Shown: positions 1,446-34,925 of the stretch, in pieces | How the letters are laid out: each line of letters begins with the position of its first letter | Numbering within the stretch: position 1 is the first letter of the stretch | DNA from: Opitutia bacterium | Lineage (GTDB): Bacteria > Verrucomicrobiota > Verrucomicrobiia > Opitutales > Seribacteraceae | NCBI GenBank assembly: GCA_018645725.1 | Contig: JABGWD010000055.1 | Coordinates: 1-41,949 of the forward strand | Direction: 5' to 3' | DNA length: 41,949 bases | Made by a program: the position numbers and the translations under genes | The notes under the pieces: generated by a model | The model's database searches: none | Seen by the model: the letters and a program-made list of their open reading frames with translations, nothing else | What the model was told of the DNA's origin: nothing

Positions 1446-1557
1446 AATGAGGTATGGATTCCCTTGTCGATTGGCAAACCAGATTTCTTCACAATCGAAG
1501 GTAAATTTGAAAATAACCGATCATTTGACCACGGAAAGTTTGACTCGAAGGCACACG

Positions 1558-3393
1558 ATGCATACCGACTATAATTCTATGCAGCAAAAGAAAGTGGAAT
1601 ATGATCGGGACAAGACGGACAACGTAGCCCTTTTGAAGTGGTTGGACAAGATGGTTGAGATGTGCGAACCCCAATCAGTCCGTTGGTGCGACGGATCCAA
1701 GCGGGAATGGAAGGAACTCACCGACCTTATGGTCAAGCAAGGCTCAATGATTCGCTTGGACAAGAAAAAGCGACCCAATAGTTTTCTCGTCCGATCCGAT
1801 CCCCAAGACGTTGCCCGGGTTGAGAGCAGGACCTTTATCTGCAGTTACGGCAAGGATGATGCGGGAGCGACCAACAACTGGCAGGAACCGAGGAAAATGA
1901 GGGCCAAGCTAAAGCGTTTGTTCAAGGGTTGCATGGAAGGCCGGGTGATGTACGTAATCCCATTTTGCATGGGGCCACTGGGGTCTCCGCTTTCTCAGTT
2001 CGGTGTTCAAGTTACCGATTCGCCCTACGTCGTCTTGAATCTTCAAATCATGACGAGAATGGGCAAACGCGTGTTGGATCAAATGGGGGAGAAGGATTTT
2101 TTCGTTCCCTGTCTGCATTCGGTCGGTTTTCCTCTCAAGGATGGCGTTGAAGACGTCCCGTGGCCCTGCGATCCCGAAAATACTTACGTCGTTCATTTTC
2201 CCGAACAGCGAACCATCGTTTCTTATGGAAGTGGATACGGGGGCAACGCCCTGCTTGGGAAAAAATGCCTGGCCTTGCGTATCGCTTCCTGCATGGCGCG
2301 GGATAACAAGTGGATGGCCGAGCACATGTTGATCCTTGGGGTGGAAAGCCCCGAAGGAGAGAAAACCTATGTGGCGGGTGCTTTTCCAAGCGCTTGCGGG
2401 AAGACGAACATGGCCATGCTGATACCGCCCGATTCAATGAAAGGATGGAAGGTTTCGACCGTTGGGGACGATATCGCATGGCTGAAACCGGACTCAACGG
2501 GAACACTCCGGGCGATCAACCCGGAAGCGGGTTTTTTCGGGGTCGCTCCTGGTACTTCGTGGGAAACCAATCCGAATGCCATGGAATCAATGCGGGCAAA
2601 CACCCTATTTACGAACGTGGCCTTGACTTCCGACGGGGACGTTTGGTGGGAAGGACTCACGCCCGAACCGCCCGAAGGCTTGATCGATTGGCATGGGAAT
2701 CCATGGTCTCCCGGTTCCGAATCTCCTGCGGCCCACCCCAATGCTCGTTTTACTGCTCCTGCCTCACAATGCCCGACGATTGACCCGGATTGGGAAAACC
2801 CCGAAGGTGTTCCCGTTTCGGCCTTTATATTCGGAGGGCGGAGAATGTCGGACATCCCCTTGGTATACCAGTCGTTCAATTGGAATCACGGCGTATACCT
2901 GGGCGCGACACTGACTTCCGAAACCACTGCTGCCGCGGAGGGCGCTTTGGGGAATTTGAGGCGGGATCCGATGGCTATGCTTCCTTTTTGCGGTTACAAC
3001 ATGGGTGATTATTTCAGGCATTGGATCAGAATGGGCAAACAGTTGGAGGAAAAGCCCCGTATTTTTCACGTCAATTGGTTTCGCAAGGATGAGAACGGTA
3101 AATTTCTTTGGCCGGGTTTTAGCGAAAACATGAGAGTGTTGCGCTGGATTGTCGAGCGCTCCAATGGCAGAGGTCGCGCTCATGAAAATCCACTGGGATG
3201 GGTTCCCAAAAAAGCTGACTTGGATTGGTTGGGCTTTGATTTTCCCGACGAACAATGGGACGAATTAATGTCGATTGATTCAGAGAAACTAAGGATGCAA
3301 ACGTTAAGGCATGAGGAATTGTTTCTTCAGTTGTCCGAATTCCTGCCCAAGGAAATGCTGTTTGAGCGCGAGCTTTTGGTTTCGCGCCTTTAG
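1558..3393 (+). CDS. pckG: Phosphoenolpyruvate carboxykinase (GTP)
   Basis: Converts oxaloacetate and GTP to PEP, CO2 and GDP, for gluconeogenesis or the reverse anaplerotic step. The 611 residues match the GTP-specific family (about 600), not the shorter ATP family. Visible motifs are the PEPCK P-loop FPSACGKTN with the reactive cysteine at C280, the kinase-2 motif VGDDIAWL from residue 302, and [14 protein letters not shown] shortly after. The frame is open upstream to 1447, but I chose the ATG at 1558: GAAGG lies six bases before it, family similarity starts after it, and the upstream codons overlap the intergenic region shared with carA. It stands alone, convergent with the oxidase operon with only 12 bases between stops and no obvious terminator. 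Confidence 0.96.
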
Positions 3394-3405: not shown

Positions 3406-4197
3406 CTACGCATCTTCTCGCGTGGACCAACGGTAGAAGATTGAGGAAAGAACGCCCACGGATACGGCCATGTTTGCCAGTTTCATCAAGACCCCGCCGG
3501 TTTTTTGGTCTTCTATCGGTGAGAGGTTCATGATTCTTTCGGCATAGAAATAGGTCTCGTACAGGACGTCCTCCGAAAAGGTAAGGGCGGCAAAGATCGG
3601 TGTTTGACCGAGCATCAGGGCGAGAACATAGAGCATTTGAGGACCATATCGAATGGGCGGCAATCGTTTGGATGGGCCACAAATGGGCCACCACATTGCA
3701 ATCGAGGTAATGAACATGGACAGGTGTTCGGCCATGTGCAGCGTCTTGTCCCTGAGTGCAGCTTCGTAAAAGACCCCAAAATGCCAAAAGGAAAAAACCA
3801 AAGTGAAAAGCAGTCCTGCGATGATGGGGTGGATGAAAAACCCAAGCACTCTTTCGGCAAGCGGATTGGTTTCCAGGATCCTGTCAATCAGGGGTTGGGG
3901 AATCCCGAGAAGAAAAAACAGAGGGCTGACGTACATGAGTACGTTGTGTTGAATCATATGAGCAAAAAAGAGAAAGTTTTCGCCCAAAGGGTCCAAGGGT
4001 GAACCGACGGCTAGATAAAAACTCACCAAACCGAGTGAAAACCATAGGGTATGCCTACCGGAGTAGGGCAAGCCCGGACAGATCTTAGTTCGAAAAGGTC
4101 CGACTAGAACGGCGTAGATCCAACCTAAAAAGAGGATGCCTCCGATCAAAGCTGGCTCGGTGTGCCAATGCGAAAAGTTGATGGGGGAATCGGTCAT
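3406..4197 (-). CDS. ctaG: CtaG-type cytochrome c oxidase assembly membrane protein
   Basis: A 263-residue, strongly hydrophobic protein with about six or seven membrane segments. It has the histidine-rich signature of the Bacillus-type CtaG (caa3_CtaG) family: FAHMIQHNVLM near residues 78-88 and WHFGVFYEAAL with MAEHLSMF further on. The family is required for maturation of caa3 oxidase, probably at a copper centre; it is unrelated to the Cox11-type CtaG of proteobacteria. It is the last gene of the oxidase operon, 33 bases after subunit IV. A GGGGAGGG run about ten bases upstream is one of the few good ribosome sites in the window. Confidence 0.88.
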   Translation of the reverse strand: MTDSPINFSHWHTEPALIGGILFLGWIYAVLVGPFRTKICPGLPYSGRHTLWFSLGLVSFYLAVGSPLDPLGENFLFFAHMIQHNVLMYVSPLFFLLGIPQPLIDRILETNPLAERVLGFFIHPIIAGLLFTLVFSFWHFGVFYEAALRDKTLHMAEHLSMFITSIAMWWPICGPSKRLPPIRYGPQMLYVLALMLGQTPIFAALTFSEDVLYETYFYAERIMNLSPIEDQKTGGVLMKLANMAVSVGVLSSIFYRWSTREDA

Positions 4198-4230: not shown

Positions 4231-4968
4231 TTACTGATTCGGGTCTTCTGGCCAAACCGTAAGGTAAGCCTCGGACCTGACTCTGATCCGGAAGTCCTCT
4301 TTGGTTGCGTCTTGATCGAGAAGATAGACTTGTTCTTCAGCAATGTTTTCTTTCTCAGTCTCCAGAACGCGTGCGAAGAAAACCAATCCTTCTTTTTGGG
4401 TTACGTCTACTGGTTGGGAACTTATCTCGATTAAATCGCCGTGAGAAACAGTCCAGGAAAAATGATGTGGAATTTTATTTTGCTCAATTTTCGTCCACGC
4501 ATTGCCAAAATCATCAATCGACTCGGAGAAAGTGTCGGGGGATTGGTGTTTGAGGTTCGCAAAGAAATATGTTCCGTCATGGACAACATATTCGCCTTTC
4601 TCGTACTCTTGGCCTGGTTTCCATTCGTTCTTGACCGCGTTTACTTCAAAATTCGTTATCTCCGGGTGCGTGTCGGCCATGTAGATCACGGCAAAGTACG
4701 TACCCAAGGCAATGACCAGCCCCATTAGAAAAAGCACTGTGTTCAGAAACTTGTCCCATCTCAAATGCATGAACCACCAGACTACCCCGACGAATTTCAA
4801 AATGGAGGTGGCGAACAAGATGCCTATGATGGAGGATCCCTCAAGGGTCTCGACATAGATGATCACGATCTCGATACCGGTGATGGCGACAAGAATCATG
4901 GAAAGATTGAAGAAGGTAAAGAAACGTTTGCTTTCTTCCAGTACTGGGTCTTCTGCGTGTCCGCTCAT
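4231..4968 (-). CDS. Cytochrome c oxidase subunit IV (CtaF/CyoD-like) with a long C-terminal extramembrane extension
   Basis: Residues 1-100 are a normal prokaryotic subunit IV: three membrane helices (about 19-40, 47-66, 75-97) with the conserved WWFMHLRWDK between helices 2 and 3. Family members are usually about 100 residues; this one has 245. The extension begins with a segment (115-161) of the pattern W-x5-YEKG-x2-V-x3-G-x2-Y...W-TKI, the layout of the CBM5/12 fold. A further beta-rich region to residue 245 is one I cannot assign. A similar YEKG segment occurs in subunit II of the same operon (see findings). It sits between subunit III (39 bases upstream) and ctaG. No Shine-Dalgarno sequence is visible. 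Confidence 0.85.
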   Translation of the reverse strand: MSGHAEDPVLEESKRFFTFFNLSMILVAITGIEIVIIYVETLEGSSIIGILFATSILKFVGVVWWFMHLRWDKFLNTVLFLMGLVIALGTYFAVIYMADTHPEITNFEVNAVKNEWKPGQEYEKGEYVVHDGTYFFANLKHQSPDTFSESIDDFGNAWTKIEQNKIPHHFSWTVSHGDLIEISSQPVDVTQKEGLVFFARVLETEKENIAEEQVYLLDQDATKEDFRIRVRSEAYLTVWPEDPNQ

Positions 4969-5007
4969 AGCTTGCGAGTTTTTTCGGTGTGTTGAATGGT
5001 TGGGGTC

Positions 5008-5655
5008 CTAGAATGCGTATTCCATCAAGTAGACAACGGGGAAGATTATGATCCACACGATGTCGACAAAGTGCCAATAAAGTCCGCAGCATTCGATATC
5101 CATTGCATCTGCCGTACTCATTTTCCCCGTGAACGAATAAACGAGCCAACCCAATAGCCAAAAAACACCGATGGCAACGTGAGTGCCGTGAGTACCGGTT
5201 AGCACGTAGAAGGTGGAACCAAACACATGGTCTTGACCTTGATAGTGGGAGAGAGTCAGTTCATGACCTTCGTGAGTTACGAAATGAGTGAACTCGTAAA
5301 CCTGACAGGCGAGAAAGATCGATCCGAATATGATGGTCCCCAAGAGCATCCAGCGGGTGCTTGTTAAGTTTCCTTTGTGGATGGCCGAAACGGCAAGAGC
5401 CATAAAGAGAGAACTGGCCAAGAGGATGAAGGTACTGAAAGAGGTAAGCTCGATGTCGAATATATTCCGAATGTCAACAGTCGTACTGCCCACCGTTGCG
5501 GAAATTTTCCTGTAGATCAAATGGGTCGAGATCAGTGTTCCGAAAAACATGCAGTCGGAACCAAGAAAAGCCCACATGAGAATTTTCTTGCTCGGAATGC
5601 CGGTACTTGTAACCGGTTCGTGATGTTCGAGGGCGTGTGTTGCTGCGTCGCTCAT
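5008..5655 (-). CDS. ctaE: Cytochrome c oxidase subunit III
   Basis: A 215-residue membrane protein of the short five-helix subunit III type. It shows the family landmarks KILMWAFLGSDCMFFG (24-39), HVFGSTFYVLTGTHGTHV in the penultimate helix region, and the terminal CGLYWHFVDIVWIIIFP, in which WHFVD is almost invariant. It stabilises the subunit I core and the proton-uptake path of the haem-copper oxidase in the inner membrane. It lies 34 bases downstream of subunit I and 39 bases upstream of subunit IV, so cotranscription is very likely. The length and motifs are complete. Confidence 0.95.
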   Translation of the reverse strand: MSDAATHALEHHEPVTSTGIPSKKILMWAFLGSDCMFFGTLISTHLIYRKISATVGSTTVDIRNIFDIELTSFSTFILLASSLFMALAVSAIHKGNLTSTRWMLLGTIIFGSIFLACQVYEFTHFVTHEGHELTLSHYQGQDHVFGSTFYVLTGTHGTHVAIGVFWLLGWLVYSFTGKMSTADAMDIECCGLYWHFVDIVWIIIFPVVYLMEYAF

Positions 5656-5689
5656 AACTGTTTCAAAAAATTATCAAGTTTTTGGGTGA

Positions 5690-7639
5690 TTATTCCTCGT
5701 CTTCCTTGGGAAACAAATGGTAGCCCCCGGGACCCTCCATGGCCCACATGATTATACCGATGATAAATACGATTCCTCCAATGATCGGTATCATGTAGTC
5801 GCGCTCCAGAACAACACCCGTTTCGAGGTCCTTTGTTGCATGGAAGAGCATTCCCAGTATCAAGGTAAGTAAACCGGCTCCTGTAACAAGGGGGCACCAC
5901 GATCTGTCGGGCATGTGGACGCCATGATCGTCGAGCGGCTCCTTTTCGGAGTGTTTTTCCTTTGGGCCGTAATTGTTTTCCCAGGCTTGGTCGCGGGATT
6001 TGATGATCGGCATACGGGCGAAGTTGTATTCTTTGACTGGTGAAGAAAGCGTCCATTCGAGGGTTCTTGCGTCCCATGGGTTTTTGCCCGCCGGTTTGAG
6101 TTTCTTGTCGAAGAAGGAGGAAACGAATTGGTATACCCCGATGGCAATGCCAATTCCCAGAACAAAGGCACCCACCGTTGCAATCTGATTCCATGCCTCG
6201 AAGCCATGGCCCAAATTGTAAGTATGTGTCCGACGAGGTTGGCCGATCATTCCCAAATAATGCATGGGAAAAAAGGTGACGTTGAAACCTATGAACATGA
6301 GGGTGAACACGACTTTTCCGATCTTCTCATTCATAAGCCGCCCGGTCATTTTCGGGAGCCAAAAGTAAAAGCCTGAAAACAAACCGAACAAGGCTCCGCC
6401 AATAAGGACGTAATGAAAGTGAGCTACGACGAAGTAGGAATCTTGGTGCTGGGCATCAATGGGCACGGATGAGTGCATGATTCCGGTAAATCCCCCGATC
6501 ATGAACATGGTGATGAAACCAAGGGCAAAAAGCATGGGTGTCTCGAAGCGGATACGCCCTCCCCACATGGTTCCGATCCAGTTGAAGATCTTGACCCCTG
6601 TCGGAATCGCTATGAGCATCGTTAGAATAGCAAAGGCGGAAGTGGCTACGATCCCCATCCCCGTGGTGAACATATGATGACTCCAAACGGCAAAGCCCAT
6701 GAAACCAATGATAACTCCGGAAAACACAATCAAGCCATATCCAAAGAGTGGTTTGCGTGAAAAGGCCGGAATGACTTCCGAGACAATGCCCATGGCGGGA
6801 AGAATCAGGATGTATACTTCGGGGTGCCCGAAAATCCAAAAAAGGTGCTGCCAAAGATGAGGCTTGCCACCTTCCTGAAAGTCGTAAAAGTTTGTTCCGT
6901 AGGTTCGGTCGAACATGAGTTCGGCCAAGGCGATTGTGATTGCCGGAAAAGCAAGAATAATCAGGAAACTGACGACCAGCGTCATCCAGGTAAAAACGGG
7001 AAGTCTCATCATGGTCATGCCGGGGGCCCGCATATTGATGATTGTCGTGATGAAATTGAAAGATGCGAGGAGGGAGGCAACACCCAATATTTGAAGGGAG
7101 AATACCCAGAAATCGGGTCCCATGTCATTCATGACCTCGGCAAAGCGGTTGTCTGTCAGCGGGGCATAGCCAAACCATCCGATCGCAGGGGAACCTCCGG
7201 TAAAAAACCAACTGAGGTTTAGGGTAATCCCTCCCGCTATGAAGCACCAAAGGCTTAGCGTGTTCATCCGGGGAAAAGCAACGTCCCGGGCCCCTATTTG
7301 AAGGGGCATGACGAAATTGAAAAAAGCGGCGCTCAATGGCATGATGACAAGGAAAACCATGGTCGTCCCGTGCATCGTGAACATTTGATTGTACTCACGG
7401 TTGTTGAGGATGTCCAGGTTGTGGTTCCACAATTGAGAACGGATAAGCAACGCTTCAAGTCCTCCTACCAAAAGGAAGAACAGGGCGGTGAGGCCATACA
7501 TAAAGCCAATTTTCTTGTGGTCGATGGTAGTGAGCCAATCGATGATGCCGGTGGTGTGTTGTCCGGGTCTGGGAAAAACCTGATTTTGTAACTTTGTTTC
7601 GGTCTCGGGGGCGACGTATTTGACGGATTCGGTAGCCAT
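5690..7639 (-). CDS. ctaD: Cytochrome c oxidase subunit I (aa3/caa3 type, haem-copper oxidase family A)
   Basis: The catalytic subunit holds haem a, haem a3 and CuB and pumps protons while reducing O2. Visible ligands are H90 (TMHGT) and H409 for haem a, H407 for haem a3, and H272, H321 and H322 for CuB, with Y276 of GHPEVY as the cross-linked tyrosine. E274 in that motif places it in family A1, K350 marks the K channel, and D119 in the GARDVAFPRMN loop fits the D channel. At 649 residues it is longer than a 12-helix subunit I: after the core come two extra C-terminal helices (about 590-610 and 618-636), as in Bacillus-type caa3 subunits. No Shine-Dalgarno sequence is present. Confidence 0.97.
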   Translation of the reverse strand: MATESVKYVAPETETKLQNQVFPRPGQHTTGIIDWLTTIDHKKIGFMYGLTALFFLLVGGLEALLIRSQLWNHNLDILNNREYNQMFTMHGTTMVFLVIMPLSAAFFNFVMPLQIGARDVAFPRMNTLSLWCFIAGGITLNLSWFFTGGSPAIGWFGYAPLTDNRFAEVMNDMGPDFWVFSLQILGVASLLASFNFITTIINMRAPGMTMMRLPVFTWMTLVVSFLIILAFPAITIALAELMFDRTYGTNFYDFQEGGKPHLWQHLFWIFGHPEVYILILPAMGIVSEVIPAFSRKPLFGYGLIVFSGVIIGFMGFAVWSHHMFTTGMGIVATSAFAILTMLIAIPTGVKIFNWIGTMWGGRIRFETPMLFALGFITMFMIGGFTGIMHSSVPIDAQHQDSYFVVAHFHYVLIGGALFGLFSGFYFWLPKMTGRLMNEKIGKVVFTLMFIGFNVTFFPMHYLGMIGQPRRTHTYNLGHGFEAWNQIATVGAFVLGIGIAIGVYQFVSSFFDKKLKPAGKNPWDARTLEWTLSSPVKEYNFARMPIIKSRDQAWENNYGPKEKHSEKEPLDDHGVHMPDRSWCPLVTGAGLLTLILGMLFHATKDLETGVVLERDYMIPIIGGIVFIIGIIMWAMEGPGGYHLFPKEDEE

Positions 7640-7675: not shown

Positions 7676-9202
7676 TTAGCGCTGATCGAGGAGATATGTA
7701 ACCAGTTGGTTGACTCGGATGCTTTTCTCTTTGTTCAACTCCTTTTTCTCTTCTTTCAATTGATCGCCGTCTTCTTCGAGAATAGGGAGAGGCTTGAATG
7801 ACCTCAGTGGGTGTTTGTCGTCGACTCTTTCTCCGTTCCACATCAGGTTGCCGAATTTTACTTTGTTGGAGTCTTGGAGCCATTCGACCAAGTTGGTTCT
7901 GTCGTTTCTCATCCATCCCGCGGCAAGTGAAGTGCGGAGTCCGAAAAGCGTGAGGTTTGGCCCTTTCGAGCCAATGCCGGTTCGGTTAAGAGCGTGACAT
8001 TCCCCGCACTGGGAGCCGAGAAAAAGCGCTTTTCCAATTTCGTAATCATTTGAATTCAGTTTTTTCCAGGATCCGGATGAAAAATTCGGTTCGTCGCCCT
8101 TGCTTACCTTCGAGAGGGCGCGAAACTCCCTTGTGGAATTTTCGTCTACCAAGGATTCCTCCTTGTCAATCACGGCACTTCCCTTTTCGTATTCGTCTAC
8201 CAAGGATTCGTCTTTGGCAATCACGACGCTTCCTTTTTCGTATTCCTTCGTGGAATCCCATTGAAGGGTCTTCAGGTTCGGGTTTTGAGCATTCTGCATA
8301 CGCTCGACCCACTTTGCAAAATCAGCATCGGTTTGGGCAAGTCCGCGGAATGACATGTAGGCGTGCGAATTGCCGCAGTATTCGGCGCATTGACCGTAAA
8401 AGAGACCGCCAACGGGCTCGAAAGTCGCGTTGAAATCCTGTTTGGCAAATACTGCCTCCCTCATTTTGCCGTTGAAGACGGAAGGCATTGCAGTCGCGAC
8501 GTTTTCCTTAAAGGGCTTTCCGTGCCGGTCGGTTCGTGAAAGTATTTTTTCCTGATCGGCGATGAACCACATGAAATTTTCGTGACCCGGCATTGCGTCC
8601 ATTTTTCCCGCCAATTTGGGAATCCAAAAACTATGGATGACGTCTTCGGACTTCAAATTGATACGGATGGCCTTGGTGACTGGAAAAACAAGTTCGTTTG
8701 CTGTGACGATACCGAACTGGGGGTATTCGAAAATCCAGAAAAACCTTTTTCCCGTGACATTGACCGTGATTGCTCCCTCAATTTGCTCCCGATCCAAATT
8801 CAATTTTTTGAGGGTAGCCTCGTCATTGGGATCGGGAACCCTGTTCATCAGGACAACTCCCTGCAGGGTGGGGATGGCCAAAATGACGAGAATAACAGTG
8901 GATGCCAAAATGAGAAGCGTCTCGACTTTGGAGTTCCCATGAGTCTGGGGTGGAACCTCCATTGCCTCTTCTTCATTTTTCACCCGGTATTTCCATAGGA
9001 CGTACAAGAGGCAGCCTCCGACAGCGCAGAAAAGAAAAATGGTTATCCAAACCGAAAGCATGAATATGTCGTACTGGTTCTGCGCAACAATCCCCTTTGG
9101 ATCCAAGGCGGATTGCTTGTGGTCGATCCGTGAACATCCACCCGAAAGAATGATCGCGAGGGAAAACAACAGACTTTGGCGAGATAGAATTTTATGAATC
9201 AT
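7676..9202 (-). CDS. ctaC: Cytochrome c oxidase subunit II fused to cytochrome c (caa3 type), with an inserted CBM5/12-like segment
   Basis: Receives electrons and passes them through CuA to haem a. An N-terminal signal ends at a likely lipoprotein cysteine (C23). Two membrane helices (about 46-70, 94-116) lead to the CuA cupredoxin domain with H190, C272, E274, C276, H280 and M283. The C-terminal cytochrome c domain has haem motif CGECH (399-403) and a probable axial M454. Between these domains lies an unusual linker (314-381): W...YEKG, a duplicated 17-residue unit, then FRALSKVSKGDEP...SGSWKKL, which matches the end of a CBM5/12-like module. Its DNA has a 51-base tandem duplication (8141-8242). 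It lies 28 bases after ctaB and 36 bases before ctaD. Confidence 0.95.
   Translation of the reverse strand: MIHKILSRQSLLFSLAIILSGGCSRIDHKQSALDPKGIVAQNQYDIFMLSVWITIFLFCAVGGCLLYVLWKYRVKNEEEAMEVPPQTHGNSKVETLLILASTVILVILAIPTLQGVVLMNRVPDPNDEATLKKLNLDREQIEGAITVNVTGKRFFWIFEYPQFGIVTANELVFPVTKAIRINLKSEDVIHSFWIPKLAGKMDAMPGHENFMWFIADQEKILSRTDRHGKPFKENVATAMPSVFNGKMREAVFAKQDFNATFEPVGGLFYGQCAEYCGNSHAYMSFRGLAQTDADFAKWVERMQNAQNPNLKTLQWDSTKEYEKGSVVIAKDESLVDEYEKGSAVIDKEESLVDENSTREFRALSKVSKGDEPNFSSGSWKKLNSNDYEIGKALFLGSQCGECHALNRTGIGSKGPNLTLFGLRTSLAAGWMRNDRTNLVEWLQDSNKVKFGNLMWNGERVDDKHPLRSFKPLPILEEDGDQLKEEKKELNKEKSIRVNQLVTYLLDQR
8141..8242. repeat. 51-base in-frame tandem duplication in the subunit II linker
   Basis: Two adjacent 51-base copies, 8141-8191 and 8192-8242, differ at six positions by direct comparison (about 88 % identity). 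Each encodes 17 residues of the pattern YEKGSxVIxKxESLVDE. The length is a multiple of three, so the reading frame is kept. It lies in the linker between the CuA and cytochrome c domains. Confidence 0.93.
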
Positions 9203-9230: not shown

Positions 9231-10169
9231 TTAGAGGTAGCGGTCGATCACGAGAGCTGCGAGAAGAAGGGGGAGGTAAATGATCGAGGCGATGAAAAGG
9301 CGTTTGGCAGATCTGTCCCGGTCCTTGCCAAAGGCAAAATCAAGTGCTCGAAGCATGATGAAGACAGTCAGCAGGATTGCACTGATAAGATAGAAATCGC
9401 TCGGTTTTTTTTGTCCTTCCCCCAAGTCGAAAAAATAGGGTGCGAAGACAAAAAAATTGAGAACGAGGGTGTAGGCGAGACTTTTGCGGGCAAGAACGGC
9501 GCCGGTGGCATCCCCGAAATTATGAAGCTGGAAACCTCCCTGTTCGTAATCGTCACGGAAATTCCATGCAATGGCCATAAAATGAGGAAGTTGCCAAGCA
9601 AAGAGGATCCCAAAAAGAATCCACCCGTACAAGGTGGGTGAATTGGCTGCCGCTACCCAACCAATGAGAGGAGGGAGGGCTCCGGATAGGGCGCCTATTT
9701 CGATCGCGATGGGGGTCTTTTTCTTAAGAGGAGTATAGAAGCCCAAATACACCACAAGAGTAAGAAGCGTGAGTCCGGTGGCCCAAGCGTTCGTTCCTGC
9801 CCAGAGGATACCCAAGCCAAAGAAGGAAAGGAAAATTCCGAACAAAAGGGCAAATTGTGGGCTAACGAGCTTGGCGGGAATCGGACGGTTGGCGGTTCTT
9901 GGCATGAGGGCGTCTTCCTTTCGTTCCATCCATTGGTTTAGCGCTGCCGCTCCTGCGGCGGACAACGCGGTGCCAAGTGTGAGCGAAACAAAAAGACTGA
10001 GGTTGTTGACCAAAGGATCGTGAACCAAATACCCAAGGGAGGCGGTAAAGACGGAAAGAAGGCTGAGACGGGGTTTAGTAAGTTCATAAACACCGAGTAG
10101 GGAAATGCCATGCTCGTTTTGAAGGGGCGCGGCATCCGACTTGGCTGATATGTCTTTCACGGTATTCAC
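9231..10169 (-). CDS. ctaB: Protohaem IX farnesyltransferase (haem O synthase)
   Basis: Adds a farnesyl chain to haem b to give haem O, the precursor of the haem A used by the downstream oxidase; integral membrane protein of the UbiA superfamily. The 312 residues and about eight or nine hydrophobic segments are typical. The first prenyl-diphosphate site reads NQWMERKEDALMPRTANRPI (78-97) and the second is in the WNFRDDYEQGG segment. The start is a GTG at 10169; no in-frame ATG lies close upstream. It is first in the oxidase operon, 28 bases before subunit II. Haem A synthase (ctaA) is not in the window and must be elsewhere if the enzyme carries haem A. Confidence 0.95.
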   Translation of the reverse strand: MNTVKDISAKSDAAPLQNEHGISLLGVYELTKPRLSLLSVFTASLGYLVHDPLVNNLSLFVSLTLGTALSAAGAAALNQWMERKEDALMPRTANRPIPAKLVSPQFALLFGIFLSFFGLGILWAGTNAWATGLTLLTLVVYLGFYTPLKKKTPIAIEIGALSGALPPLIGWVAAANSPTLYGWILFGILFAWQLPHFMAIAWNFRDDYEQGGFQLHNFGDATGAVLARKSLAYTLVLNFFVFAPYFFDLGEGQKKPSDFYLISAILLTVFIMLRALDFAFGKDRDRSAKRLFIASIIYLPLLLAALVIDRYL

Positions 10170-10473: not shown

Positions 10474-11412
10474 GTGAAAGTCTGCAGACACATTGACGTC
10501 CAGTTGGCAGGAGCCATCTGTTTTTTTCTTCTTCTTGCATGTGGCGATGAGAATCTCAATCGTGGGAATTCTTCTTTGGCTGAACTCGAAATCAGGGGTA
10601 AGTTTTCTGCCGCGGAAGATAACTCGAGCGAAGTCGAGGTGATTCTATGGGGAGCCGGCAACAAGGTTGATCCTGAAATTTCGTCCAAACTCGGCAAGAC
10701 CTTTAAGTTTGGCATACAGCCCGATGACCTGGCGTTGATTCGCCGCAAGAAGATATTCAAGGGAAGAGTCCAGGAAACCCTCGTCCCATCGGTTGGAAAA
10801 GCTTATTTGTTGCACAACCTCTGGCCTGACGAACGTGGCGCTCGCAGCCGTCTTGACAACGTCAACCGCCTTCTTCGGCGGGACACCTTGTCTTTGGGCG
10901 ATGGATTGATCCGTACCGTGGGCGATCAGTTGCCTCCGTTTGCCCTATACGATCAGGATGGGGAGATCATAACCACGGACTATTTCGATGGTTCCTCAAC
11001 CGTTCTTAATTTTATCTTCACGAGGTGTTCCGTTCCCGAAATGTGTCCTGCTTCCATGATGAAGTTGAAAAAATTACAGGCTCTTGCGGAAAAGACCAAA
11101 ATCAAGCACGTGAGGTTTCTCTCCATCACCCTTGATCCCCTCTATGATTCCCCCGGAGTGCTCAAGCAGTACGCTCAAGCCTACGGTTTGAACGAGGAAA
11201 ACTTTCGCTTTGGAACTGCGGGAAAGAACGTGATCGACGACTTGACCCGTCAGTTTGGTCTTCTTCGCAAGAATCACGAATCTCTTACCATCGAGCATAC
11301 GATGCGCACGCTTTTGATCAACTCCCGCCGGCAAATCATTTATCAAGTGCCGGGCAAGTCATGGTCGGTGGAGGACTTTCTTTCCCGTCTTTCCGAAGGA
11401 ATTCAAGGATGA
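10474..11412 (+). CDS. SCO1/SenC-family copper chaperone lipoprotein with an extra N-terminal domain
   Basis: SCO proteins deliver copper to, or reduce, the CuA site of cytochrome oxidase. The GTG start at 10474 is supported because it gives a compact lipoprotein signal ending LLAC (C23). Residues about 150-310 are the thioredoxin-like SCO domain: FTRCSVPEMCP with C185 and C191, and H275 in the IEHTMRTLLI strand. The cysteines are five residues apart (CxxxxxC) instead of the usual CxxxC, a variant I believe also occurs in related SCO proteins. Residues about 35-130 form an additional domain I cannot name; its position resembles the CusF-like domain of some planctomycete SCO proteins, without that motif. 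It is divergent from the oxidase operon and coupled by an ATGA overlap to the next gene. Confidence 0.88.
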   Translation: MKVCRHIDVQLAGAICFFLLLACGDENLNRGNSSLAELEIRGKFSAAEDNSSEVEVILWGAGNKVDPEISSKLGKTFKFGIQPDDLALIRRKKIFKGRVQETLVPSVGKAYLLHNLWPDERGARSRLDNVNRLLRRDTLSLGDGLIRTVGDQLPPFALYDQDGEIITTDYFDGSSTVLNFIFTRCSVPEMCPASMMKLKKLQALAEKTKIKHVRFLSITLDPLYDSPGVLKQYAQAYGLNEENFRFGTAGKNVIDDLTRQFGLLRKNHESLTIEHTMRTLLINSRRQIIYQVPGKSWSVEDFLSRLSEGIQG

Positions 11413-12308
11413 GTCCCTCACTACGCGCCCTGGTGATCGCCTTGCCCTTCGCAGGCACTTATTTTGTAACCCGATCCCTTCCCGTCACTCCGTGCGATTT
11501 TCTGCACGAGGAAACGTATAATTCCGAGGGAATCATCGATTATTGTGGTGGCGGAGACTCGGCTTTTGTCGATCTGTCGTTGCGGAAATGGCCTTTGTCA
11601 CTGGATTTTCGCTCGCCCGCCGGGTTGAGTCCCGGAGAAAACGCAGAGTTTGAAATCAACATAAGACAATTCGACGGTTCCCCGCTTACGGGAGATGACG
11701 TTGCCCTCAGTCACACCAAGAAAATTCATCTTTTGGTAGTGGACGAGTCGCTCACGGATTATCAACACCTTCACCCTGAACCCGATTCCCTGTATGATGG
11801 AACTTGGCGCTGTGCCTTGACCCCTAAAAATGCAGGAAAATACTTCGTGTTTTTTGACTTTATCCCAACCCGCAGTCCCAGGAGGGTTCTTTTGACCTCT
11901 TTTTTTGACGTCGAGGGCGATCGGGTTGCGGAACCCCCTGTGCAGGAAAAGCTTTTGTTTTCTTCGGGCAAGCGAAGATTCGAACTAAAAAAAGATGAAT
12001 CCGGGGAAGGTGGTCAGTCTGTGAAGTTGGTTTTCGAGGCATCGGACGAAGATGGAAAGACACTTGCCTTGCGTCCGGTTATGGGAGCTTTTGCCCACAT
12101 GGTGGCTTTTGACGGCGACCTCAAGGGGTTTGCTCACCTTCATCCTTTGGAGAACGTTTTGCCCGCCAATGAATCGGACAGCCATCAGGGACCCTTGACT
12201 TTTTCCTTCAGCCCTCCTGGAAATGGCCTCTATCGCTTATGGGCACAAGTCCGAATCAGTGGGGAATCGGAAACCTTCATCCCCTTTGACCTGAAGGTGG
12301 GTTCCTGA
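11409..12308 (+). CDS. Exported protein with two HLHP-type histidine domains, probably linked to copper/oxidase assembly
   Basis: The start ATG at 11409 overlaps the SCO stop (ATGA); an in-frame codon at 11361 lies well inside the SCO gene and is unlikely. The 299-residue product has an N-terminal hydrophobic segment, so it is exported or anchored. Two similar beta-rich domains follow. The first (about 65-170) has HTKKIHLLVV then YQHLHPE (119-124); the second (about 205-297) has HMVAF then FAHLHP (241-246). Similar KIHLLVV...HLHP sequences occur in uncharacterised exported proteins near metal-transport genes, possibly of FixH/YtkA-like fold. Paired histidines suggest copper binding, which is inference from sequence and context. 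C29 and C46 are further possible ligands. Confidence 0.65.
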   Translation: MSPSLRALVIALPFAGTYFVTRSLPVTPCDFLHEETYNSEGIIDYCGGGDSAFVDLSLRKWPLSLDFRSPAGLSPGENAEFEINIRQFDGSPLTGDDVALSHTKKIHLLVVDESLTDYQHLHPEPDSLYDGTWRCALTPKNAGKYFVFFDFIPTRSPRRVLLTSFFDVEGDRVAEPPVQEKLLFSSGKRRFELKKDESGEGGQSVKLVFEASDEDGKTLALRPVMGAFAHMVAFDGDLKGFAHLHPLENVLPANESDSHQGPLTFSFSPPGNGLYRLWAQVRISGESETFIPFDLKVGS

Positions 12309-12324
12309 CTTTTGGAGGACGGGC

Positions 12325-12900
12325 ATGGAAATAGATTCTTACACTAAGCAAAAGCCGAACGTCGAATTGGCAAGAAGGTCAAAGATTCTTGTTTGGATTG
12401 TCTCTGCTCTTGTCCTTGGCCTTGTCGCAGCAATGCGGCCGCTGCGACCTTGGTTCCTGTCCTTGCTCGAAAAGCCGGATGGACTTGAACTTTCTTTTCT
12501 TCCGCCCTTCCATGCGATACTCAATGCCTTTGCCGCCTTTGGGCTGGTAATGGCCGTTCGAGCGATCAAAAAACGCCAGGTTTTTCTACACCGAAAATGG
12601 ATTTTCTTTGCCCTGGGTTGCTCATCGCTGTTCTTGGTTTCCTATGTTTGTTACCATCTTACGACCTTTGAAACTCCCTTTGGCGGGCAGGGATGGATCA
12701 GTAAACTTTATTATTTCGTTCTTATTTCGCATATCGTTCTCGCAGCCTTGAGCTTTCCCTTTATCCTTCTGACTTTCGTTTACGGCTTCACGAACCATTT
12801 CGTAGAGCACAGGAAACTTGCTCGCATTGTTTATCCGGTTTGGCTCTACGTCGCCGTAACCGGACCGGTCGTCTATCTGATGTTAAGGCCCTATTATTAA
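12325..12900 (+). CDS. DUF420 (YozB/CtaM-like) membrane protein
   Basis: A 191-residue protein with about five membrane helices. It matches DUF420: LPPFHAILNAFAAFGLV (59-75), a basic loop with FLHRKWIFFALG, VCYHLTTFETPFGG and a late HRKLARIVYPVWLYVAVTG. Histidines in helices 2, 3 and 4 are typical of the family. The Staphylococcus member CtaM is needed for haem-copper oxidase function, and other members sit in oxidase operons. Here it is third in the SCO set, 16 bases after the HLHP protein, with a good GGAGG seven bases before ATG. An oxidase-assembly role is therefore well supported by context. It is convergent with folA, 25 bases away. Confidence 0.85.
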   Translation: MEIDSYTKQKPNVELARRSKILVWIVSALVLGLVAAMRPLRPWFLSLLEKPDGLELSFLPPFHAILNAFAAFGLVMAVRAIKKRQVFLHRKWIFFALGCSSLFLVSYVCYHLTTFETPFGGQGWISKLYYFVLISHIVLAALSFPFILLTFVYGFTNHFVEHRKLARIVYPVWLYVAVTGPVVYLMLRPYY

Positions 12901-31606: not shown

Positions 31607-33169
31607 ATGATCCCGTCGAACCACATAGCGCATGAAGTTTTCGCAGTACTGAGCAAAAAGTCCGGTGCTCCCGCGCTTGTCGACTATGGTCTTCCCTTGA
31701 TTCCCCGTCTTAACCGGGGAACCCTCTTGGTACTTGCTCTGCGCATGTCCCGTGATTTGAAGGCCGAAATCAAGGAAAAACGGGTAGGGGTGGTATTGTC
31801 GCCGGGGTTAGGTGGCGTGTTGGCCAACCTCGCCCTGTTCTTTGCCGACAAAGTACCGGTGAACCTCAACTTTACATTGGGGCCCGAAACGATCAAGCAG
31901 TCGATGGAGGAAGCCGGAATCAAAACGATTCTTACTGCCCGGGCTCTTACGAGAAAATTCCCGAATTTCCCTTGGCCCGATGAGTTGGTTGACATAGGCG
32001 AAAGGCTCAAGGGATATCGTAAGGAAAAGCTGTCCCTATTCCGTCAGTTGTTCTGGCTGCGCTTTTTTCCGGGGAGTTTTGCGAAATCACATGAAGTTCC
32101 TCGCGAAGGGGGCGAGAAGGAAGCCATTCTTCTTTTTACCAGTGGCAGTTCCGGGACTCCGAAGGGCGTTGTGCTTAGTCATCGTAATCTCATTTCGAAT
32201 TGTCTCCAAATTTCACAATTCGGCCTGTTTGCCGAGGATGCCAAGATTCTCGCCAACCTTCCGTTGTTCCATAGTTTTGGTTTCACAATTACTACCTTGT
32301 ACCCTCTGCTTGAAGGCCTCGAGATCGTTTCGGCACCATCTCCCCTTGATCTTGCTTCAAGCCTCCGAGCAATTCGAGAAGAACGGGTTGACGTATTGAT
32401 GGGCACTCCAACCTTTCTCAAGGGCTACTTGAGAAAGGCGAAGGTTGGGGACTTGGCAAGCGTCAAGTACGTGGTGGCCGGTGCCGAAAGGACCCCTCCA
32501 CCTTTTCGGGAAAAGTGGGAAAAGGAAGTGGGTTGCAAATACTTGGAAGGGTACGGATTGACGGAAGCTTCGCCAGTCTTGTCATTTAACGTTCCGGGAG
32601 ATGGATCCCGGGAAAACTCTGTTGGTCGGTTGCTGCCCGGGGTTGAATCCAAGATCGTTGACCCGGAGACCAAAGACGATTTGCCTAGTGGTGAAACTGG
32701 CATCCTATGTTTTCGCGGATCGAACGTGTTCCTCGGGTATTTGAACCAACCCGGGGAGACCCGCGAGGTCCTGATGGATGACGGTTGGTTGGTCACCGGT
32801 GATCTTGGCCGTATAGATGGCGATGGCTTTCTTTTCATCGAGGGTCGGCTCTCCCGCTTTTCAAAAATTGGTGGTGAAATGGTTCCTCACGGAACGGTGG
32901 AAGACGCAGCGGCGAAGGCACTTGGGTTTTCCGCCGAGGACGATCCCGTTTGCGTGGTTGTCGGAATGGAGGACGAAGCCAAAGGTGAGCGGCTTATCCT
33001 ATTGACTTCGGTTGATTTCGATGCGGAGAAATTGCGCAAGGACTTGTCCGAGGCAGGCTTGTCCAACCTGTGGATCCCCCGGGAGGTTCGCAAGGTCGAC
33101 TCTATCCCAATTTTGCCTACGGGAAAGCTCGATCTCCGGGAGATCAAAAAGCTTGTGGCGGAGCGCTAG
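31607..33169 (+). CDS. AMP-forming acyl-CoA/acyl-ACP ligase (Aas-like adenylation enzyme)
   Basis: Activates a carboxylic acid, probably a fatty acid, as acyl-adenylate before transfer to CoA or ACP. The 520 residues hold all ANL-family motifs: the P-loop-like LLFTSGSSGTPKGVVLSHRN (A3), GYGLTEASPVLSFN (A5), GWLVTGDLGRIDGDGFLFIE (A7), GRLSRFSKIGGEMV (A8), and the catalytic lysine in LPTGKLDLREI (A10). The sequence style (PLFHSFGFTITTLYPLLEG, GVESKIVDPETKDDLPSGE) resembles the ligase half of the lysophospholipid acyltransferase/acyl-ACP synthetase Aas; here it stands alone. Its last 26 bases overlap the convergent flagellin gene. Substrate unproven. Confidence 0.85.
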   Translation: MIPSNHIAHEVFAVLSKKSGAPALVDYGLPLIPRLNRGTLLVLALRMSRDLKAEIKEKRVGVVLSPGLGGVLANLALFFADKVPVNLNFTLGPETIKQSMEEAGIKTILTARALTRKFPNFPWPDELVDIGERLKGYRKEKLSLFRQLFWLRFFPGSFAKSHEVPREGGEKEAILLFTSGSSGTPKGVVLSHRNLISNCLQISQFGLFAEDAKILANLPLFHSFGFTITTLYPLLEGLEIVSAPSPLDLASSLRAIREERVDVLMGTPTFLKGYLRKAKVGDLASVKYVVAGAERTPPPFREKWEKEVGCKYLEGYGLTEASPVLSFNVPGDGSRENSVGRLLPGVESKIVDPETKDDLPSGETGILCFRGSNVFLGYLNQPGETREVLMDDGWLVTGDLGRIDGDGFLFIEGRLSRFSKIGGEMVPHGTVEDAAAKALGFSAEDDPVCVVVGMEDEAKGERLILLTSVDFDAEKLRKDLSEAGLSNLWIPREVRKVDSIPILPTGKLDLREIKKLVAER

Positions 33170-34925
33170 GCTTTTTCCCGTTGGTTTTCACGCCTGCAAG
33201 CAGTTTTTGCAAAGAGAGTCTGCTTTCCTGTCCCTGAGCCAAGATAGCCATACTGGCTTGGGTTTTGATTTGGTTTTTTGCCAGCGTTGTACTTTCCTCC
33301 GCAAAATCGGTATCGGCAATTCGACTAAGAGCGTTTTCCTGTGCATTCAAGGTGGACTCGAAGTTGTCCCGTTGCGTTAAAATTCTTTTTGTGTTGGCTA
33401 CCACGCTGGCTCTTTCTTTGGACAGAGACTCAATCAATTCCTCAATTTTTAACAAGGTGTCATTGGCTGACTCAATGGTCTTGAGGTTGTGACTTTCCAA
33501 ATTATCGACCGATATCATTTCAACCGTCTCCAAAAGTTGATCGTTTGGCGCCAGAACGTTGTCTTCTCCTTCCCACAGGACGTTGAACCCGCTGGTTGGG
33601 TTTTTCACAGGGTCGGTGAGCTCGTAGCCCGGTCCGGTGTTGGGAACGGCATCCGCTACCGATATGACGGCTCCTGCTCCATTTTCCGCGTCGAATCCGC
33701 CAATGGCTCCGGTATCTGCGTTGTAGACGTGAATCTTGCCGCCTAATTCGGTTGCGGCATTTGCCTTGTAATCGGAGATGAATTCGTCATTCGCCGTGGA
33801 GATGTCGGTGTATTCGGCTGGAATGAAGTGTACAAGGGCCGCCCCGATGCTGCTTTGCTCTGCGGTTTTTCCGGCGACTGCTTGATCGGACATCCAACGG
33901 AGCATGGTCTTTACCCCCTCGGTGGCCCCTGCAGTCTTCAATTCTTCATGTAAGTAACGAACGGAAAGGTAGTTGGAGGCTCTGCCCATGATCCCCCCGC
34001 TTTGATCATCCCCCGAGCCCATTGCATTGACCAAATCAGTGAGATTGGAAGCCCCGCTGAATTGAATCAAATAATCGCCGCCGTGAACGAATTCTTCCAA
34101 GCCATCCTTGAACCAAAAGCCTCCCCCTTCCGTGGAGACTCCCTTGTTTTGGTTCCCATTTGCCAGGGCGTCGTAATAAAGGTTGTCACGGAGAATCAAC
34201 CGCGTCATGGCCTGCACGTTGTATCGTTCGGCCCAGTCGGAAGGGGAGGAAACCGGGAAACCGGCTTGTCGGTAGGTATCCAGGAAGAACTTGAGCTTTG
34301 CATTGTTGCCATCGTAAGATTCGGAAATGAGTACCGGATAGGCTTCCTCCTCAGATACCTCGATGACCAAATTGATTTGTCCCGTACCTTGCAAACCGAG
34401 TCGATCGTTTACGGTTTGCTCGGCTCCCTTGAGCCATTGTGATCGGAGAATATTAATGAAATTGGCTTTTTCAGCGCTATATTGCGGATCGTTGATGGTG
34501 AGGTAGATGGGATCACCTTGAAAAAGATTTATGTCATTCAGTTTCAATTCCTTGATGGAATTGAGTTCATTGGTCAGTTCGACGAATTCATGGTTGTAGG
34601 CGATTCGATCAGCGTCCGTCTTCGTGACGTCGAGGGCAAGTTGGGAAAGAGTATTCATCCTTTGCAGAATGTCCGACGCCTGACCGAGAGCGCCCTTTTG
34701 CATTTGGGTATAGGAAATCAGATTCTGCAGGTTGCGAACGGCCAGGGAAGCGAGTTTTTGTTCGTTTTCGATGCGAATAGCTTGCTCAAAGCCACCTGCA
34801 TCTGCGTTGGCGTTGAGATGCTTTTTCCCTGAGGCTAGTTTGGCAACCGATTTTTCCACTGCCCCCGCTGCGTTGATGCCGTTGAAAGCGAGAGAGAGGG
34901 AGGCGTTATGCAGTTGGATCGTCAT
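33144..34925 (-). CDS. Flagellin with a flagellinolysin-type central domain whose zinc motif is lost
   Basis: The ends are true flagellin: residues 1-135 (LASGKKHLNANADAGGF, NLISYTQMQKGALGQASDIL) and about 480-593 (SRIADTDFAEESTTLAKNQI, ASMAILAQ), with a short K/P-rich tail after the usual end. The surface-exposed middle (about 175-450) resembles the gluzincin-type insert of flagellinolysins: WFKDGLEEFVHGGD (271-284), YLSVRYL...GVKTML, and NADTGAIGGFDAENG (402-416) with a VPN.. and PTSGF tail. Where active members have HExxH, this one reads Q238-A-M-T-R242, so all three key residues are replaced, while the third-ligand candidate E278 remains. No other flagellar gene lies in the window. A five-base-pair hairpin abuts the ATG, with no Shine-Dalgarno sequence. 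Confidence 0.9.
   Translation of the reverse strand: MTIQLHNASLSLAFNGINAAGAVEKSVAKLASGKKHLNANADAGGFEQAIRIENEQKLASLAVRNLQNLISYTQMQKGALGQASDILQRMNTLSQLALDVTKTDADRIAYNHEFVELTNELNSIKELKLNDINLFQGDPIYLTINDPQYSAEKANFINILRSQWLKGAEQTVNDRLGLQGTGQINLVIEVSEEEAYPVLISESYDGNNAKLKFFLDTYRQAGFPVSSPSDWAERYNVQAMTRLILRDNLYYDALANGNQNKGVSTEGGGFWFKDGLEEFVHGGDYLIQFSGASNLTDLVNAMGSGDDQSGGIMGRASNYLSVRYLHEELKTAGATEGVKTMLRWMSDQAVAGKTAEQSSIGAALVHFIPAEYTDISTANDEFISDYKANAATELGGKIHVYNADTGAIGGFDAENGAGAVISVADAVPNTGPGYELTDPVKNPTSGFNVLWEGEDNVLAPNDQLLETVEMISVDNLESHNLKTIESANDTLLKIEELIESLSKERASVVANTKRILTQRDNFESTLNAQENALSRIADTDFAEESTTLAKNQIKTQASMAILAQGQESRLSLQKLLAGVKTNGKKPSAPPQAF

Follow-up and report, generated by a model that had tools for sequence, protein, structure and literature searches.

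The 41,949-nucleotide contig of an Opitutia bacterium analysed here (the window; C308 in an assembly of 3.93 Mb) encodes, divergently from a caa3-type cytochrome oxidase operon, a protein (11409–12308, plus strand) with two tandem domains that each carry the motif His-Leu-His-Pro (HLHP). We propose that this HLHP protein is a periplasmic, membrane-anchored copper protein that works with the SCO lipoprotein encoded directly upstream to supply the neighbouring caa3 oxidase, a reading to which we assign a probability of somewhat under 60%. The proposal is based on an internal duplication, conserved histidines, the copper-related neighbourhoods of relatives, linkage to SCO, restriction to oxidase-bearing genomes within a phylum sample, and the near absence of PCuAC, Cox11 and YtkA from related genomes; copper binding, its oxidation state, its delivery and the target copper site are what we infer from these. 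The initial annotation of the window had pointed to an uncharacterised periplasmic copper carrier for the oxidase. That direction is borne out by the copper gene clusters around relatives and by co-distribution with Caa3_CtaG, while several details have had to be revised.

The motif occurs as QHLHP at residues 119–123 and as AHLHP at residues 242–246. The two halves of the protein are homologous, aligning as profiles with an hhalign probability of 99.1% (E 1.7e-18), so the repeat is not a product of chance and the tandem architecture first described stands. Domain 1, defined by alignments and by structural comparison, spans residues 60–172 (11586–11924, plus strand); domain 2, defined by alignments and by its homology to domain 1, spans residues 182–299 (11952–12305, plus strand). 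In the alignment of the halves, H107, H120 and H122 fall on H230, H243 and H245, and M225 takes the place corresponding to H102. Read by eye, the conserved sets are H-x4-H-x12-H-x-H-P in domain 1 and H-x12-H-x-H-P in domain 2. An alignment of 22 sequences, comprising 12 from the order Opitutales (that of the window included) and ten plasmid rows from other phyla, with 21–68% identity to the window protein, has ten invariant columns: H102, H107, H120, H122, P123, H230, H243, H245, P246 and G273. When nine further plasmid rows and three Verrucomicrobiota from outside the order are added, H120, H230 and H245 are present in all 34 sequences, H107, H122 and H243 in 33, and H102 in 32, two cyanobacteria having Q at this position. 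The four first-repeat histidines that the initial annotation had singled out are thus conserved, although H102 is not universal, and the equivalents it had expected in the second repeat exist for the other three only.

At the level of known families, the best Pfam result for the protein is a sub-threshold Filamin match (E 5.7e-4), NCBIfam gives no match, and a sequence search for relatives of solved structure returned seven weak matches (best E 0.054) that we judged to be noise. In a literature search with subscription papers mostly outside its scope, we recognised no description of the HLHP motif, of the family or of a Verrucomicrobiota copper chaperone, and found no record of an experimentally tested family member.

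The AlphaFold2 model (predicted local distance difference test score, pLDDT, 89.3; predicted template modelling score, pTM, 0.81) consists of a helix at residues 3–23 and two beta-rich domains. The helix (11415–11477, plus strand; pLDDT 93–96 over residues 1–20) is predicted to be a membrane anchor or a signal, which qualifies the earlier description of the protein as exported: it is predicted to remain membrane-anchored. The closest folds among the matches listed are immunoglobulin-like (Ig-like) domains of the macroglobulin and filamin type, with a VIA-align Z of up to 9.2 over 94 residues for an alpha-2-macroglobulin Ig-like domain. Among the matches listed by Foldseek and VIA-align there were only generic Ig-like folds and no prominent copper protein; this excludes nothing, and a generic Ig-like match carries no functional information. 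Such matches would also suit a structural, non-metal protein involved in adhesion or in scaffolding of a complex, in which the histidines are incidental, but we consider this very improbable, as the histidines are the most conserved residues of the family, making up seven of the ten invariant columns, with two prolines and one glycine. Judging from the DSSP strands of the model, residues 230–235 and 240–244 would pair, placing 230 opposite 245; because the spacing is equal (13 residues), 107 would likewise lie opposite 122. As a separate observation, C46 is invariant in 56 members from the order, C30 is common, and H33 is invariant in a smaller, ten-row alignment. The segment in question, residues 30–46 (11496–11546), is a linker of low confidence that joins the anchor to domain 1, and a disulfide or an extra metal site is possible there.

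The gene neighbourhood ties the HLHP protein to SCO. In the window, the SCO gene (10474–11412, plus strand; Pfam SCO1-SenC, E 4.1e-20), the HLHP gene and the gene for a DUF420 membrane protein of the CtaM family (12325–12900, plus strand; PF04238, E 1.1e-38) lie where the initial annotation had placed them, and the ATG of the HLHP gene at 11409 overlaps the SCO stop codon at 11412 as ATGA, confirming the link it had noted. The 80 HLHP loci surveyed are the best 80 of 302 in the contigs of relatives, which are Opitutales and other Verrucomicrobiota. In 70 of them the gene immediately upstream, in the same orientation, is SCO (69 by script and one, L160, by eye, with an over-extended start of its open reading frame, ORF). 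Of the ten loci without SCO upstream, three start at a contig edge (L108, L138, L146), two adjoin DUF420 (L117, L135), one lies near ctaB and DUF420 (L171), and four are taken up below. In a second survey, which overlaps the first in genomes, SCO is upstream of HLHP in 30 of 30 close loci (the window's own included) and in 22 of 23 order-level loci. DUF420, by comparison, is downstream in 23 of the same 30 close loci versus 2 of the 23 order-level loci (one miss at a contig edge), and the HLHP–DUF420 adjacency is a local arrangement. In the window this junction has a gap of 16 bases, with GGAGG ahead of DUF420; RNA folding found no structure in it (z +1.45), and a scan for promoters and terminators gave results at or below chance. 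Three of the surveyed loci in which HLHP has parted from SCO (L118, L120, L150) share a similar short uncharacterised gene downstream of HLHP (173–180 aa, starting M-D/E-D-F/L).

Co-distribution ties the protein to the oxidase as well. In a phylum sample of 288 genomes, HLHP is found in 38, of which 35 belong to the order; COX1 is found in 103, among them every one of the 38 HLHP genomes (PF00115, a family that includes further types of haem-copper oxidase), so that within the phylum the homologues do not reside mostly in genomes lacking such oxidases. Among 92 relatives, with tallies given as both/HLHP only/other only/neither, HLHP follows Caa3_CtaG most closely (56/2/2/32, phi 0.91), ahead of SCO (57/1/13/21, phi 0.68), COX1 (58/0/16/18, phi 0.64) and DUF420 (54/4/11/23, phi 0.64). 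For CtaG and DUF420 only matches over the Pfam cut-off were counted, which moves one genome each (G044 and G036, respectively) to absent. In the two genomes with CtaG alone (G006, G008), the oxidase contigs end before the SCO side. In the two genomes of one genus (g3; G028, G031) the locus has flanks that match the window by eye, with the gene at 1447–3393 at one end and DHFR and TS at the other. Here ctaB and sco–DUF420 are kept, while the genes from coxII to CtaG are gone from one side and HLHP from the other. No CtaG was found in these two genomes, which still have a different oxidase with a CuA motif. On the basis of the tallies and of this genus, HLHP goes with the caa3 oxidase, and not with SCO, DUF420 or CuA generally. 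The conserved core is SCO–HLHP with CtaG, and not the SCO–HLHP–DUF420 trio that had been described as a three-gene set; the context survey with SCO and CtaG does, on the other hand, favour the association with oxidase assembly that had been suggested.

A tie to CuA as such, which we had expected at first, did not hold. Of 20 loci fetched, 12 have a CuA motif in the subunit II of an oxidase of a different type, and nine of these belong to genomes without HLHP; the remaining loci have no such subunit II, or a fragment. HLHP as a marker of CuA is therefore rejected. This result, together with the close fit to Caa3_CtaG, lends some credit to an alternative in which HLHP is a CuB-side factor acting on subunit I in concert with Caa3_CtaG (and CtaM), instead of on CuA with SCO. 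We regard this alternative as doubtful, since it is SCO, usually a CuA factor, to which HLHP is physically linked, since Caa3_CtaG may simply mark the caa3 operon as its final gene, and since the role of Caa3_CtaG at CuB is itself described as tentative (PMC9145763). Between the two sites, we consider CuA via SCO a little likelier than CuB via CtaG.

The SCO protein, the proposed partner of HLHP, shares with SCO1/SenC proteins the PF02630 match and a thioredoxin fold; its residues C185, C191 and H275 are invariant in 39 sequences and are likely the copper ligands. Its gene starts with GTG, and a LLAC lipobox can be recognised by eye. The protein differs from SCO1/SenC in having CxxxxxC (C185-x5-C191) in place of CxxxC, as had been noticed from the start; by pattern, the wider spacing is found in 67 of 70 SCO ORFs from the loci of the 80-locus set, and is therefore the local norm. 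In the predicted structure (pLDDT 91.0) the N-terminal part is beta-rich, and the best PDB match is B. subtilis Sco (1xzo, E 2.5e-12); the top matches, the Sco proteins of B. subtilis and B. anthracis, are structures of about 170 residues, which corresponds to the SCO part without the N-terminal domain. Alignment with relatives allows the N-terminal domain (10585–10827, plus strand), originally left unassigned, to be assigned as CusF-like. CusF_Ec matches over the cut-off in four of the six relatives that were scanned: three of five from the order (L164, 6.7e-12; L167, 1.9e-10; L157, 4.4e-10) and G255 from the same class (3.2e-8). The window SCO and the order relatives L116 and L145 have no match to CusF (PF11604), and where the matching relatives have FMPAMTMEF, a stretch that contains the MPAMTM motif, the aligned window SCO has other residues. 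The domain thus looks like a degenerate CusF-like domain, a second difference from SCO1/SenC.

Beyond Opitutales, the family is widespread, and the impression of a local novelty is not sustained. A tblastn search at E 0.01 found HLHP relatives in 217 plasmid records, among them 96 from Staphylococcus and 19 from Hymenobacter, plus Streptomyces, Rhodococcus, Priestia, Nostoc and haloarchaea. We examined 20 of these loci, chosen by us for different organisms, with 5–6 kb per side where the record allowed. Copper or heavy-metal genes lie beside HLHP in 18 of the 20 chosen loci, the exceptions being Priestia and Tsukamurella, and a metal P-type ATPase is present in 14, as the adjoining gene in eight. 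The Legionella locus is a weak case, its CusA/CzcA-type pump lying beyond one gene at a distance of about 3 kb. The Staphylococcus aureus plasmid carries, in this sequence, a regulator, a copper P-type ATPase, a copper chaperone and HLHP. The plasmid proteins beside metal P-type ATPases (in Staphylococcus, Mycobacterium, Streptomyces, haloarchaea and cyanobacteria) belong to the same tandem family and have the same core histidines as the window protein, but they reside in efflux and resistance clusters and not in oxidase loci, and are annotated as hypothetical, heavy-metal-associated or heavy metal-binding domain proteins. In a 45-row tree, the 23 Opitutales sequences lie together on one side of a branch whose support of 88/72 falls short of the star threshold; their nearest neighbours are three other Verrucomicrobiota and Legionella, and the 18 other plasmid sequences are set apart at 100/100; the placement of the relative G310 and of Staphylococcus, both long branches, is unsure. 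The HLHP relative in G310 (L227) adjoins an ORF resembling MbnP with a cytochrome c peroxidase-like half, as read by eye.

The plasmid neighbourhoods raise a further alternative, namely that HLHP is a copper buffer or sensor, and not a carrier, that binds periplasmic copper and shields the zone of oxidase assembly from excess copper, as the plasmid relatives would in resistance clusters. The adjacency of relatives to copper P-type ATPases, CopZ-like and CsoR-like genes and multicopper oxidases speaks for it. We find it unlikely, given that the Opitutales HLHP genes are mostly fixed beside SCO and confined to oxidase-bearing genomes, and given that no efflux gene was recognised among the ORFs of the window (by eye, with a Pfam scan of the cluster only).

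Several observations weigh against our proposal that HLHP works with SCO to supply the caa3 oxidase. Outside the order, the neighbours are efflux and resistance genes, with no haem-copper oxidase genes annotated in the 20 loci, and buffering or detoxification could therefore be the ancestral job of the family; moreover, the count of 18 in 20 rests on hand-picked loci from plasmids, which are rich in metal genes, without a base rate. The hypergeometric value for the overlap of HLHP and COX1 in the 288 genomes (5e-20) ignores relatedness. Four of the 80 HLHP genes (L118, L120, L149, L150) lie away from SCO and oxidase genes within the reach of the locus, and in the 34-sequence alignment G310 lacks H107, H122 and H243. 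Among the 92 relatives, three HLHP genomes (G040, G057, G076) have only a weak COX1 match (E 1e-33 to 1e-40), and a missed caa3 operon is possible in these because the assemblies are fragmented or incomplete; two HLHP genomes (G076, G081) show no CtaG. Finally, those genomes of the order that lack HLHP possess a different oxidase in which the CuA motif is intact and which is loaded by other means.

The known copper chaperones are close to absent from the relatives searched. Among the 92 relatives, PCuAC is found in one (G032), Cox11 in none and YtkA in four (two over the cut-off), and PCuAC (PF04314) has no match in the window's own genome. The sole PCuAC (G032:C365:650-1575) lies beside an SCO that scores far above all others (E 2e-48), and is perhaps contamination, the assembly consisting of about 630 contigs. 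PCuAC and HLHP would have in common the position of a second copper protein beside SCO and a beta-rich periplasmic fold; HLHP differs in its two Ig-like HLHP domains and membrane anchor and lacks the H(M)x10Mx21HxM motif, and it does not match PF04314 at E up to 10.

A further functional parallel is CtaK (YtkA, PF13115) of Bacillus subtilis, which has CtaK instead of PCuAC; there, Sco, Caa3_CtaG and CtaK are specific for the caa3 oxidase, and CtaM serves both oxidases (PMC9145763). CtaK is membrane-attached and takes part in the assembly of copper sites, as proposed for HLHP, and shares with it Sco, DUF420/CtaM, Caa3_CtaG and the caa3 oxidase as partners (PMC9145763, PMC13344008). The Opitutales set of Sco, HLHP, CtaM and Caa3_CtaG mirrors the B. 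subtilis set of Sco, CtaK, CtaM and Caa3_CtaG, with the difference that the window DUF420 gene sits by the sco operon, whereas B. subtilis ctaM is unlinked to haem-copper genes (PMC9145763). HLHP is distinguished from CtaK by its two domains and by a histidine-only motif, as opposed to the conserved His and Met of CtaK (PMC9145763).

The shared partners could also mean that HLHP is a divergent member of the YtkA/CtaK family, a CtaK in tandem form. With E up to 0.5, PF13115 does match seven of ten plasmid homologues, exceeding the cut-off in one (E 1.7e-7). Yet the window protein has no PF13115 match, and only six of 56 order members do (best E 0.013); compared with YtkA as profiles, HLHP reaches 32–61% probability versus 43–92% for Ig-like controls (eight YtkA sequences, none of them Bacillus CtaK). 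In the phylum sample PF13115 is found in 21 of 288 genomes, 12 of them from one genus, and at loci L178–L194 it matches Verrucomicrobiota frames of mostly 723–793 aa at up to E 2e-6. The Ig-like domains translated from some of the matching loci contain no HxH motif, and PF13115 alone is therefore weak evidence of a relative of CtaK. A tblastn search of the plasmids with a second YtkA domain found none. Descent from CtaK/YtkA is thus not supported, the profile scores being no higher than those of the Ig-like controls, and we consider this alternative quite unlikely.

If our proposal is correct, each Ig-like domain would present a beta-hairpin with H-x12-H-x-H-P, plus H102 in domain 1, the histidines of which may offer a compact, putative all-histidine site, probably for Cu(II). 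Copper that reaches or leaves the membrane would be picked up by HLHP and handed on to SCO and subunit II for CuA or, less likely, to Caa3_CtaG and subunit I for CuB. HLHP would thereby fill the slot held by PCuAC in proteobacteria and by CtaK in B. subtilis. With somewhat less than even confidence, we go further and suggest that HLHP joins PCuAC and CtaK as a third, independently evolved copper metallochaperone of cytochrome c oxidase. Opitutales would have recruited it from a copper-handling family that is widespread in bacteria and archaea and has no Pfam or NCBIfam description, and it would be dedicated to caa3 even in genomes with a second CuA oxidase. HLHP occupies a place left vacant in nearly all of the 92 Opitutales relatives searched; it is a concrete target for knock-out and metal-binding work. 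If true, the proposal would also provide a function for a family whose members are mostly annotated as hypothetical and are found repeatedly next to metal pumps on plasmids of staphylococci, actinobacteria, cyanobacteria and haloarchaea.

The divergent operon, on the minus strand, has the order ctaB, coxII fused to a cytochrome c, coxI, coxIII, coxIV and Caa3_CtaG. It opens with the haem O synthase gene (9231–10169; Pfam UbiA, E 3.9e-47), named CtaB from its position. Subunit II (7676–9202; Pfam COX2, 1.5e-18) has a C-terminal cytochrome c domain (Cytochrom_C, 1.2e-4), which makes it caa3 type, and its CuA motif reads, by eye, GQCAEYCGNSHAYM. Subunit I (5690–7639; Pfam COX1, E 1.7e-157) follows, then coxIII and coxIV, named from position and by eye, and the final gene, Caa3_CtaG (3406–4197; PF09678, E 1.1e-55, matched stretch 3424–4122). 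Elsewhere in the genome to which the window belongs, a second COX1 (437.9 bits; G000:C371:20202-21575, locus L072) adjoins a subunit II with the CuA motif CAEMCGIGHGVM, and a third, weak COX1 match lies on C179.

Two other genomes contain oxidase genes with in-frame stops. In G017, the contig with the HLHP locus (C1) carries a COX1 (4575–5840) with two TGA codons and a Caa3_CtaG (1725–2438) with one TAG and one TAA in frame, suggesting a decayed or mis-assembled copy; further matches lie on C19. In G132, a COX1 match (C3:14026-15366) has ten in-frame TGA codons and a second copy has none, which suggests a pseudogene or odd decoding. Elsewhere in the window, a 593-aa ORF (33144–34925, minus strand) has a start that appears flagellin-like by eye.

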